Assembly (NCBI GenBank): GCA_003280025.1
Contig: QCGD01000004.1
Span: 62,001-126,000 of the forward strand
Source: Prochlorococcus sp. AG-363-P06
GTDB lineage: Bacteria > Cyanobacteriota > Cyanobacteriia > PCC-6307 > Cyanobiaceae
Length of the DNA: 64,000 nucleotides
Reading direction: 5' to 3'
In this document: one piece after another, positions 39,889 through 43,415 of the stretch
How the letters are laid out: each line of letters starts with the position of its first letter
Numbering within the stretch: position 1 is the first letter of the stretch
Made by a program: the position numbers and the translations under genes
Notes under the pieces: generated by a model
Seen by the model: only the letters and a program-made list of their open reading frames with translations
What the model was told of the DNA's origin: nothing
The model's database searches: none

Positions 39889-40968
39889 TTATATAAATAT
39901 TTTATTTAAGTTTTTTTCTTTTTGTCTCCAGTATTTTTCCTTTTTAATCAAAATTTTAAATTTATTTTTTAATTCATTTATTTTATTCCTATGTATTGAA
40001 AGCTTTAAATTATTAAATTCCAATTCAACAGTACTAATATTCATCATATAAATACTTGGTAATTTCAAACCATCATTGAATAATTGATTTATGTTAAGGT
40101 CAAACTCTATTATAAAAGGACTTGGATGCTTTATTATAAATTTTTTGTTGAATAGAAACTTAAACGTATTTTCTGAAATTATTTTTTTAATTAGTTTTGA
40201 TTCAAATAATTCTACATTAATTTGGTAAGAAAGATTCAGTAATAAATTAGCTAGTGAATTATCTATTAAATCAAAGCAATTAAGTTTTTGATTCGAAGGA
40301 GATATCACTTGAAAGGGTTTATTTAAATTTTGAGAATCTTTAAATTTATTATCACTAGCCTCTTGGGATATTTCTAGCAAAGAGTTTATGATATATTCTT
40401 CTGAATCTATTTTTTTATTTGAATTTAGATTTTGGAAATCATTTAAATCTTGACTGCAATCTAAATCTATAGATGAAAACTTTTCATTATTTATTGATCG
40501 ATAATATTCATTACTATTAGAAATATCTTGATTGATAGAAAAATGAAGAGATTCCTCAGCAATTAAAGAATCTTGGGAATTCAGTTGGACTGACTGATGG
40601 CTTTTTAATTCAACGACTTCTTTAAAACTATTAAAATCTATCTCTAGATTTTCTGTATTAATAGAATCGTTAATTTTTAATTGTTCAATAGTTATTAAAG
40701 GGAGTTTTGAATTGATTAAATAACTGATTTTATTTTCTAAATGGTTGCTTAATTCTTTTGTATTAATTGTCTTATCATTTCTTGAAAAGTCTGAAATAAA
40801 TCTATCAATAGTTTTTTCAACTGAAGTAAAAATTAATTCCCTAACCAGTTTAAGGTAAGATTCATATTCCTTATAAATATTATTTATTAATTTATTTTTA
40901 TTTACTTCTGCACGACTTAGCTGAGAGTTTATTTCTTCTAGTTCTAAATCATTAATCAATTTTTTCAA
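39889..40968 (-). CDS. Unknown protein between tsf and recG
   Basis: This 359-residue protein has no recognised domain. The N-terminal third is helical and charged, with coiled-coil character (residues 1-75). The middle (about 100-230) is low-complexity, rich in Ser, Asn and Glu and probably disordered. The C-terminus (about 250-359) is ordered, with strands NTFKFLFNKKFIIKHPSPFI and a basic helix ending KEKYWRQKEKNLNKIFI. It starts with TTG, four bases after the tsf stop, so it is likely in the rpsB-tsf transcript. Confidence 0.75.
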   Translation of the reverse strand: MKKLINDLELEEINSQLSRAEVNKNKLINNIYKEYESYLKLVRELIFTSVEKTIDRFISDFSRNDKTINTKELSNHLENKISYLINSKLPLITIEQLKINDSINTENLEIDFNSFKEVVELKSHQSVQLNSQDSLIAEESLHFSINQDISNSNEYYRSINNEKFSSIDLDCSQDLNDFQNLNSNKKIDSEEYIINSLLEISQEASDNKFKDSQNLNKPFQVISPSNQKLNCFDLIDNSLANLLLNLSYQINVELFESKLIKKIISENTFKFLFNKKFIIKHPSPFIIEFDLNINQLFNDGLKLPSIYMMNISTVELEFNNLKLSIHRNKINELKNKFKILIKKEKYWRQKEKNLNKIFI

Positions 40969-40972
40969 GTTT

Positions 40973-41629
40973 TTATTTTGATTGTAATGATGCTACTTCA
41001 TCAGCAAAGTCCATTTCATTTTTTTCAATACCTTCTCCTAAAGTATATCTAGTAAAACGTCTTACTTTAATATTTTCTCCAATTTTTGCTGCTGCTTGCT
41101 TCACAAGATCCTCTACAGTTAGAGAACTGTCTTTGATATATGGTTGAGATAACAATACTAACTCGTTAAGTCTTTTAGCTATTCTTCCTTCTACTATTTT
41201 TTCTTTTATTTGTTCTGGTTTTCCAGATAAATCGTCTCTACCCATTTCAATCTGTTTTTCTTTGTCGACTACATCTGAAGGGATCTCGTCAATTGATACG
41301 TACTCAACATTAGGACAAGCAGCTACTTGCATAGAAACATCCTTTAAGAGAGATTGAAAAATATCTCCTCTGGCTACGAAATCAGTTTCACAATTTAATT
41401 CTAAAAGTACTCCCACCCTGGATCCAGTATGAATATAGCTACCTATAGAGCCCTCAGTTGCAATTCGTCCTGATTTTTTTTCGGCACTAGCTATACCTTT
41501 TTTTCTTAGCCATTCTAAAGCCTTCTCAACATTCCCATCTGTTTCATTGAGAGCTTTTTTGCAATCCATCATTCCTGCACCAGTCTGATCTCTAAGATCT
41601 TTAACGAGTTTTGCTGTAATGTTTCCCAT
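40973..41629 (-). CDS. tsf: Elongation factor Ts
   Basis: EF-Ts exchanges nucleotide on EF-Tu. The UBA-like N-terminus [40 protein letters not shown] and [22 protein letters not shown] are diagnostic. The length of 218 residues is the short single-core form common in cyanobacteria. It lies 43 bases downstream of rpsB, the classic order. Confidence 0.97.
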
Positions 41630-41672
41630 TTAGTTAATAAATAATAGTAATTTGTAAAATTTAAGTCTGAAA

Positions 41673-42377
41673 TTAATTCTTTCTATCATTATTAGAACCT
41701 TTTCTTCCCTCATTTATTGCATCTGCTAATCGTCCTAATATAAGTTGAACAGATCTAACTGCATCATCATTACAAGGAATAGGAACTTCACACAGATCGG
41801 GATCACAATTAGTATCCAACATTGATACTAATGAAATATCTAATTTCCTAGCTTCAAGAACCGCATTGGATTCTCTTCTTTGATCTACTAAAACTACAAC
41901 GTCTGGCAATCTTCTCATATCCTTCAGTCCGCCTAAATACTTTTGTAAACGCTCCAGCTCTCTTCTTAAGACAGCTGCCTCCTTCTTAGGTCTCATTGCG
42001 ATAGAACCACTACTTTCCATTCTTTCTAGATCTTTCAATCTTTCAATCCTTGCTTTCATAGTTGTCCAATTTGTAAGCATTCCCCCAAGCCACCTTTGAT
42101 TAACATATGCAGCTCCGCACCTAGTGGCTTCTTGAGCAACAACATCTGAAGCTTGCTTTTTGGTTCCTACAAATAGAAATCTTTTTCCACTTTTAGCGGC
42201 GTTTCTTGTCCATTTATATGCATTATTCATACATAATGCAGTTTTAACTAGATCAATAATATGAACCCCATTTCTCGCACAGTATATATACTTAGACATT
42301 TTGGGGTTCCAACGTCTAGTTTGGTGCCCAAAGTGAGCACCTGCTTCCATCATTTCAGATAGTGATACAACAGCCAT
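41673..42377 (-). CDS. rpsB: 30S ribosomal protein S2
   Basis: Ribosomal protein uS2. Signatures are [40 protein letters not shown] and the DIPCNDDA-like [14 protein letters not shown] segment. The length is 234 residues. A structured leader with interleaved complementary segments lies immediately upstream. Confidence 0.97.
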
Positions 42378-42470
42378 AATTTAGTGGTTTCGGGTTAGCC
42401 TCCACCTGACGGGAAATTTATAAATTTAAATCACCCGAAACAGTCAGATGTGTGGTTTTAATTTTTTATA
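42378..42470 (-). promoter_or_regulatory. rpsB 5' leader with pseudoknot-forming potential
   Basis: In the sense (minus) direction the order is CTGAC (42443-42447), GTTTCGGGT (42433-42441), then GTCAG (42406-42410) and ACCCGAAAC (42387-42395). CTGAC pairs with GTCAG and GTTTCGGGT pairs with ACCCGAAAC. The pairs interleave, which is the topology of a pseudoknot. The first pairing also extends through CCAC/GTGG across a bulge and would cover a GGTGGAGG Shine-Dalgarno-like segment. In other bacteria S2 represses its own operon through a leader, so this is a plausible autoregulatory site. Confidence 0.75.
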
Positions 42471-42503
42471 TTATATCAATGAATAGGTATTTCTAAAAGT
42501 TTT

Positions 42504-43415
42504 TCATTTTAATTTGTTTAGGTGTTTAATGTAAATCAAATTTAGAGGTATCCTTAAGATCTCAAGTGCTAACTTATCTCTTTTTGAATTAACTAGAAAT
42601 CTTAATAATGGTAATAATCTCTGAATGCTTATAAGACCTCCTAAACAAAGCAGTTGCCAAAGCAAATTATTAAGAGGAGTTAGTTGAATCATAAATCTAA
42701 CCCTTAAATTAGGATGTTTCTTAAAGAAAACCATTGCCATCCTTGCCCGCTCCTTTTCTTGGGCTATTAATGATTCAATCTGCTCGCAATTAAAAGGTGG
42801 ATGCCAATGAAAACCTACAGCCTTTGGGCATTTAATTAATTTTGTACCAACTTTTTTTAATCGTTCTCCTAATTCTAAATCCTCCCAACCATAAAGTTCA
42901 AAAGAGGTGTCAAACAAACCAACACTTAAAATTAATTCTTTTGATATAGCAACATTTCCAGTCGCAAAGTAAGCAAATGAAGTGTCCAATAATTTAAATT
43001 TTTCACTCTGCGGCTTATCAAAATTAGAAGTATTAATAACTGAACCATAAGTAAAACACTTTTTGTTATTTTTGCTCCAATAGATTTGTAATTTATCAAT
43101 ATGTCTAATTATAAAATCATCTAAAACGATAAGATCACTATCAATAAATATAATAATTTCATATTTTGACTTAATTACTCCAAGATTTCTGCCTAATGCA
43201 GGTCCCCCGTGTTCTTGTTCATATAATACGACGTGAGGAAGATTGTCCTTATTATTTTTTATCCACGAGCTTGTTCCATCAGTTGAACCATCATCTACTA
43301 CAACAACTTCATACTTACCAACATTTTTATTTAATTTCTGTTTTTCTAGTGCTTTAAGACATTTCTCCAATATAGGTTTTCTATTGTAGGTTGGAATAAC
43401 AATACTGACATTCAT
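42504..43415 (-). CDS. Glycosyltransferase family 2
   Basis: This GT-A fold glycosyltransferase of 303 residues has VSIVIPTYNRKPILEKCLKAL at the N-terminus, VVVVDDGSTDGTSSW, a DxD-like IIFIDSDLIVLDD, and the acceptor-side FELYGWEDLELGERL element. The C-terminal 80 residues (helical, hydrophobic patches) may contact the membrane. The sugar is not predictable. It is separated from rpsB by about 126 bases that include the rpsB leader. Confidence 0.9.
   Translation of the reverse strand: MNVSIVIPTYNRKPILEKCLKALEKQKLNKNVGKYEVVVVDDGSTDGTSSWIKNNKDNLPHVVLYEQEHGGPALGRNLGVIKSKYEIIIFIDSDLIVLDDFIIRHIDKLQIYWSKNNKKCFTYGSVINTSNFDKPQSEKFKLLDTSFAYFATGNVAISKELILSVGLFDTSFELYGWEDLELGERLKKVGTKLIKCPKAVGFHWHPPFNCEQIESLIAQEKERARMAMVFFKKHPNLRVRFMIQLTPLNNLLWQLLCLGGLISIQRLLPLLRFLVNSKRDKLALEILRIPLNLIYIKHLNKLK

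Follow-up and report, generated by a model that had tools for sequence, protein, structure and literature searches.

A structured RNA preceding rpsB has been described before. The rpsB motif (Meyer et al. 2009, PMC2704228), which includes Cyanobacteria, is presented in the available text of that report as lying upstream of rpsB and consisting of a helix P1 capped by P2 and P3, with a junction that pairs with the 3' extension of P1 to form a pseudoknot. According to the same text, P2 is absent or very short in Cyanobacteria and the pseudoknot comprises five base pairs outside Firmicutes; the relation of the motif to the Shine-Dalgarno (SD) sequence goes unmentioned there. In E. coli, S2 represses translation of rpsB-tsf through the leader and needs S1 to repress effectively, as stated in passages of PMC10931766, which place the ribosome binding site outside the operator and hence describe the S2 mechanism as unclear. 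Further parallels in these passages are the pseudoknots of the mycobacterial rpsO (S15) leader and of the E. coli alpha operon (S4), which lie upstream of or over the start site and through which a protein represses its own translation; they involve other genes and other proteins, and the likeness is one of architecture. A survey published in 2020, which presents 20 new ribosomal leaders (PMC7247131), names rpsB once in its available text, under the Bacteroidia L13 leader, and the word "cyanobacteria" nowhere in it.

We analysed a stretch of 64,000 nucleotides from Prochlorococcus (hereafter the window), in which a pseudoknot leader occupies positions 42470-42378 of the minus strand, directly upstream of the rpsB ATG at 42377. 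This element is the rpsB motif, or S2 leader, already known. A preliminary description of the locus had proposed two interleaved pairings in the order of an H-type pseudoknot upstream of rpsB; both were recovered, on the minus strand, and both show covariation in a structure-free alignment of relatives (alignment A1, below). The parts of the locus are listed here, with the evidence for each in brackets.

42470..42478, minus strand: extended -10-like promoter box TGATATAAT (sequence and conservation in leaders)
42451..42456, minus strand: ACCACA, conserved stretch before P1, an ACACA-like element being present also in E. coli (alignment A1 and E. coli leader)
42443..42450, minus strand: P1 5' arm CAUCUGAC (8 of 8 P1 pairs changed on both sides)
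42433..42441, minus strand: pseudoknot 5' arm GUUUCGGGU (4 of 9 pairs changed on both sides)
42411..42432, minus strand: loop L2, 22 nt, probably a P3 hairpin, weakly supported in the genus (shuffles of each loop)
42403..42410, minus strand: P1 3' arm GUCAGGUG (sequence, relatives, covariation)
42396..42402, minus strand: loop L3, GAGGCUA, conserved, the SD-like segment of the preliminary description (alignment A1 and E. coli leader)
42387..42395, minus strand: pseudoknot 3' arm ACCCGAAAC (sequence, relatives, covariation)
42378..42386, minus strand: 9-nt spacer from the pseudoknot to the ATG, without an SD-like 4-mer (sequence)
41673..42377, minus strand: rpsB, ribosomal protein S2, 234 aa (ATG at 42377-42375)
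40973..41629, minus strand: tsf, elongation factor Ts, 218 aa (open reading frame, name from reading of the translation)

Matches to rpsB were found in 163 of 200 genomes of the same genus. The next gene 3' of rpsB, on the same strand, is tsf, and on the other side a glycosyltransferase-like open reading frame (so named from its translation), also on the minus strand, ends at 42504 and leaves a 126-nt gap to rpsB. An additional open reading frame of 359 aa with a TTG start (39889-40968, minus strand) is situated between tsf and a recG-like frame (names again from reading) and possibly belongs to the same operon.

P1 joins CAUCUGAC (42450-42443) to GUCAGGUG (42410-42403) in 8 bp, with one U-G pair and no bulge. 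The CTGAC/GTCAG pairing of the preliminary description stands as the core of this helix, whereas the CCAC/GTGG extension that it drew across a bulge does not: the helix is continuous, with a CAU/GUG extension, and relatives change this continuous extension in step, which rules out the bulged form. The pseudoknot helix joins GUUUCGGGU (42441-42433) to ACCCGAAAC (42395-42387) in 9 bp, and a single base (L1) separates the P1 5' arm from the pseudoknot 5' arm, so that there is no room for P2 in the window leader. Position, P1 and pseudoknot are like those given for the rpsB motif in the available text of PMC2704228, from which this leader differs in having a 9-bp rather than a five-bp pseudoknot. 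As for P3, loops within the lowest 5% of their own shuffles amounted to 7 of 24 in the genus, 59 of 74 in the rest of the family and 32 of 65 in other families; the hairpin is supported in the family and class, and weakly in the genus Prochlorococcus. Two leaders of one family (L174 and L179, family f16) kept both helices with an L3 of only TTTGA, the conserved GAGG being absent.

When the 126-nt leader was dinucleotide-shuffled 2000 times, interleaved helices of at least 8 and at least 9 bp (G-U allowed) appeared twice, and the same bare geometry was found in 38 entries across both strands of the AT-rich window, the rpsB leader among them; geometry alone is thus not decisive. After we merged overlapping entries among the 38 into 23 scored sites, the rpsB leader had the lowest relative helix energy, -22.2 versus -11.8 for the next site (a gap of about 10 kcal/mol), and only such differences count because every score contains dummy hairpin loops. 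The nested part alone, evaluated by a program without pseudoknot modelling, was modestly stable (z -1.93, a value equalled or bettered by 9 of 200 shuffles).

For comparison with relatives, we used 180 rpsB upstream regions. Of these, 36 belong to the same genus (that of the window among them), 75 to other members of the family and 69 to the class outside the family. We read the family as that of Prochlorococcus and marine Synechococcus, a reading helped by closely similar leaders in Prochlorococcus loci. This sample is not random: 30 of the 36 same-genus leaders are the best-scoring matches, and the family and class leaders come from returned loci together with entries picked for spread over genera and families. 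Under our pairing rules both interleaved helices were present in 176 of the 180 leaders. The four lacking P1 and the pseudoknot under these rules were L094, which has one mismatch in ACCC; L156 and L167, in which the start was seemingly misplaced by the script, hence the apparent lack of helices; and L180, which in our reading seems to have gained sequence that separates P1 from the pseudoknot arm. P1 was rewritten repeatedly with pairing kept, as in CAUCUGAC/GUCAGAUG, CACCUGUC/GACAGGUG, CAUCCAGG/CCUGGAUG, CAUUCGUCC/GGACGAAUG and CGCUCGAC/GUCGAGCG. The pseudoknot, which reached at least 7 bp in 169 of the 176 leaders, varied less than P1 (UUUCGGGU/ACCCGAAA, AUUCGGGU/ACCCGAAU, CUACGGGU/ACCCGUAG and UGGGU/ACCCA). 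Its GGGU/ACCC core is almost invariant and, because it hardly varies, is supported by conservation with little covariation.

Since the search for leaders had itself required pairing, an alignment made without structure served as an independent test. This alignment, A1, was generated with MAFFT from 78 hand-picked cyanobacterial sequences (that of the window plus 77 loci, with L094 included and L156, L167 and L180 left out); three sequences that were misaligned by eye (L078, L080 and L169) count against the structure. In A1, 96.4% of cells pair compared to 84.8% in shuffles, with 97.1% in P1 and 95.8% in the pseudoknot. Changes on both sides were detected in 12 of the 17 pairs, comprising all 8 pairs of P1 and 4 of the 9 of the pseudoknot, and the cells with a both-side change numbered 178 compared to 51.6 in shuffles. 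The observed value of any of five measures was reached by 0 of 500 shuffles, and pairing fell to 51.7% or 46.6% when partners were slid by one base. The compensatory changes that the preliminary description had proposed to look for in relatives are thus present, and in both helices. A nested GGG/CCC competitor from the minimum-energy fold was rejected: it had no both-side changes, 74.8% of its cells paired, and it paired better (84.2%) when slid by -1. Conservation and covariation settle the pseudoknot as real, and a chance arrangement is ruled out by covariation, shuffles and helix energy.

At the gathering level, Rfam gave no match in the window. In the covariance search against Rfam that had been suggested earlier, the best match to the leader was t44 (RF00127), at 28.7 bits and E 1.7e-4, below the cut-off of 44. 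Neither the 96 cyanobacterial genomes searched with t44 (stricter filters; one match at E 0.12) nor 11 cyanobacterial loci yielded a match over the cut-off. We therefore file the element as the rpsB motif, which Meyer et al. described, and not as a member of t44 by the Rfam cut-off. In E. coli, t44 covers the rpsB leader and overlaps the RNA annotated as tff/T44. We also built a model from A1 with only P1 as structure (R1), which correctly locates the rpsB leader of E. coli K-12 (27.4 bits, E 1.5e-7) and also picks up leaders in Marinobacter (34.2 bits) and in a Pseudomonadales metagenome-assembled genome (MAG; 27.1 bits). Both of the latter precede rpsB, and both are matched by t44 over its cut-off (61.9 and 63.9 bits). 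Judged from these sequence matches, the cyanobacterial leader is homologous to the gammaproteobacterial S2 leader. In our reading, the E. coli leader has the same order of parts, namely ACACA, CACGUAUC/GAUACGUG, GGGGU/ACCCC and GAGGCAUA. However, its pseudoknot has 5 bp compared to 9 bp here, and its pseudoknot arm ends approximately 24 nt before the ATG and is followed by a separate AGAGG approximately 12 nt after the arm, whereas here the arm ends 9 nt before the ATG and no SD is present. The preliminary description had called the structure an rpsB leader by analogy with E. coli S2, an assignment strengthened by the covariation of both helices, by the recovery of the E. coli leader with R1 and by t44 being the best sub-threshold match.

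In the source genome, R1 identified one strong copy (78.2 bits, E 1.6e-18), the next match having E 2.8. In a sample of 194 genomes of the phylum, 94 were matched, 88 of them in the same class and 6, weakly, outside it. Among the unmatched genomes listed, apparently in order of kinship (80 others being unlisted), only one belonged to the same class, and with filters off it proved to have a leader with a long loop (40.6 bits). Based on the 88 class matches and this additional leader, the element appears to be general in the class within the phylum sample. The weak matches outside the oxygenic class, 6 of approximately 105 phylum genomes, had E values of 0.006-0.09. A pattern scan of genome contigs gave at least 117 stretches, largely from unrelated organisms; when R1 was applied to 80 loci among the scan matches listed, 11 had E below 1e-10, and these were from Prochlorococcus or other cyanobacteria. 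In one Trichormus locus (L247, 2914-3001, plus strand), the S2-like reading after the leader soon diverges, and in our reading this copy may be broken or a second one.

The leader is located between a -10-like box and the start codon. Of 176 leaders, 171 had the element TGNTANNNT in the interval 8-45 nt upstream of P1, and in 162 it stood 18-24 nt before P1, compared to approximately 6% of shuffled stretches. As a rule, transcripts start about 7 nt downstream of the -10 box. The predicted transcript start would thus be near 42463, approximately 12 nt upstream of P1, and both arms would be kept in the transcript; a start inside the leader that removes one arm, which the preliminary description had named as evidence against its proposal, is not what this -10-like box suggests. 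No mapped rpsB transcript start was found in the literature searched, and rpsB is absent from the available main text of PMC5607370 and PMC3219970. Across the class the TGNTANNNT box lies at a nearly fixed distance from P1, as though promoter and leader had evolved jointly.

The preliminary description also placed a Shine-Dalgarno-like segment, GGTGGAGG, inside the structure. This segment belongs partly to P1 and partly to L3, and its GGAGG, formed by the last P1 base and L3, ends 21 nt before the ATG. GGAGG was found in 103 of 110 leaders of the family, with a median distance to the ATG of 22 nt (18-28), and in 51 of 66 leaders of the other class families; leaders with GGAGG outside the Prochlorococcus family also have a separate SD-like site, and E. 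coli has a separate AGAGG. An ordinary SD role for GGTGGAGG is ruled out by the distance to the ATG and by the separate SD in other-class leaders and E. coli. The GGAGG within the structure is conserved loop sequence, and its distance from the start codon is too great for an ordinary SD.

We then defined an SD-like 4-mer as GGAG, GAGG or AGGA and sought it between the ACCC core of the pseudoknot and the ATG. It was present in all 66 other-class leaders, its first base lying anywhere between 3 nt inside the pseudoknot and 4 nt past its end; it overlapped the pseudoknot in 25 and abutted it exactly in 12. By contrast, it was detected before rpsB in none of the 110 leaders of the Prochlorococcus family, in which 6-15 nt separate the end of the pseudoknot from the ATG. 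Nor is the SD lost from rpsB alone in this family: before tsf (41590-41650 in the window), the 4-mer occurred in 0 of 71 family loci versus 2 of 5 outside the family. Its absence before both genes agrees with the statement, in the available text of PMC5607370, that Prochlorococcus is probably not dependent on SD sequences. The closeness of pseudoknot and SD in most of the cyanobacterial families sampled, together with the loss of the SD in the Prochlorococcus family, was not found in the open-licence literature searched. In the Pseudomonadales MAG (L230, 2571-2677, minus strand), the pseudoknot arm in our reading leads straight to an AGGA-like site ahead of the ATG of rpsB, an arrangement shared by many cyanobacteria.

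As in E. coli, the leader most likely serves S2 feedback on rpsB-tsf through the pseudoknot, with S2 as the putative ligand, repression as the presumed outcome and blocking of ribosome entry as the proposed means. The rpsB-tsf mRNA would start approximately 12 nt upstream of P1, and its 5' UTR would fold in the order of ACACA-like stretch, P1, pseudoknot arm, P3 hairpin, P1', GAGG loop, pseudoknot arm and AUG. S2 in excess of 30S sites would bind the leader RNA, probably with S1, and the bound S2 would stabilise the pseudoknot beside the start codon, such that translation of rpsB and, through rpsB, that of tsf would drop. With the pseudoknot ending at or next to the SD in other families, and shortly before the ATG in the Prochlorococcus family, the simplest mechanism would be that ribosome entry is blocked. 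Such blocking is not the known E. coli mechanism, since the ribosome binding site is said in passages of PMC10931766 to be outside the operator.

It is also conceivable, although unlikely, that the pseudoknot is real in the mRNA and acts as a ligand-free element for translation or stability, for example as a docking platform for 30S or S1 that replaces the missing SD. Such a role would suit the complete lack of SD-like 4-mers before rpsB in the family and the view that Prochlorococcus does not rely on SD sequences (available text of PMC5607370), and pseudoknots are described as high-affinity S1 targets in passages of PMC10931766. However, the same core is present where a normal SD exists, and also in E. 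coli, whose leader is the S2 operator. We regard as more doubtful still a leader that responds to another protein of the operon or to an S1-S2 complex only, S2 alone being insufficient, which would leave the feedback on rpsB-tsf unchanged; the need of E. coli S2 for S1 (passages of PMC10931766) and the position of tsf directly after rpsB are compatible with it, but the gammaproteobacterial relative responds to S2, and the available texts of the literature searched contained no report of EF-Ts binding the leader. A DNA-level origin of the arms, whether as an inverted-repeat binding site of a regulator or by chance in AT-rich sequence, is highly improbable, for although the bare geometry recurs in the window and the pseudoknot arms are nearly invariant in sequence, P1 changes in sequence with pairing kept, a covariation that largely contradicts such an origin, and the arms are preceded by a conserved -10-like box and follow the same order of parts in E. 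coli.

If S2 feedback operates through this leader, the cyanobacterial form may tentatively be viewed as a mechanistic variant whose operator is coupled to the start site, a view we hold with less than even confidence. Competition between pseudoknot and SD would then be possible outside the Prochlorococcus family; within it, the SD is gone and the pseudoknot is kept approximately 10 nt from the AUG, and control might have given up SD blocking for a form that is independent of the SD and perhaps based on S1. E. coli would differ from such a variant in that its ribosome binding site is said, in passages of PMC10931766, to lie outside the operator. Because t44 misses its cut-off in all 96 cyanobacterial genomes searched, the element is likely missing from the annotation of these genomes. 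A natural comparison for S2 repression is offered by the cyanobacterial leaders, in which one operator occurs with an SD in contact with or close to the pseudoknot in other families and without an SD in the Prochlorococcus family.
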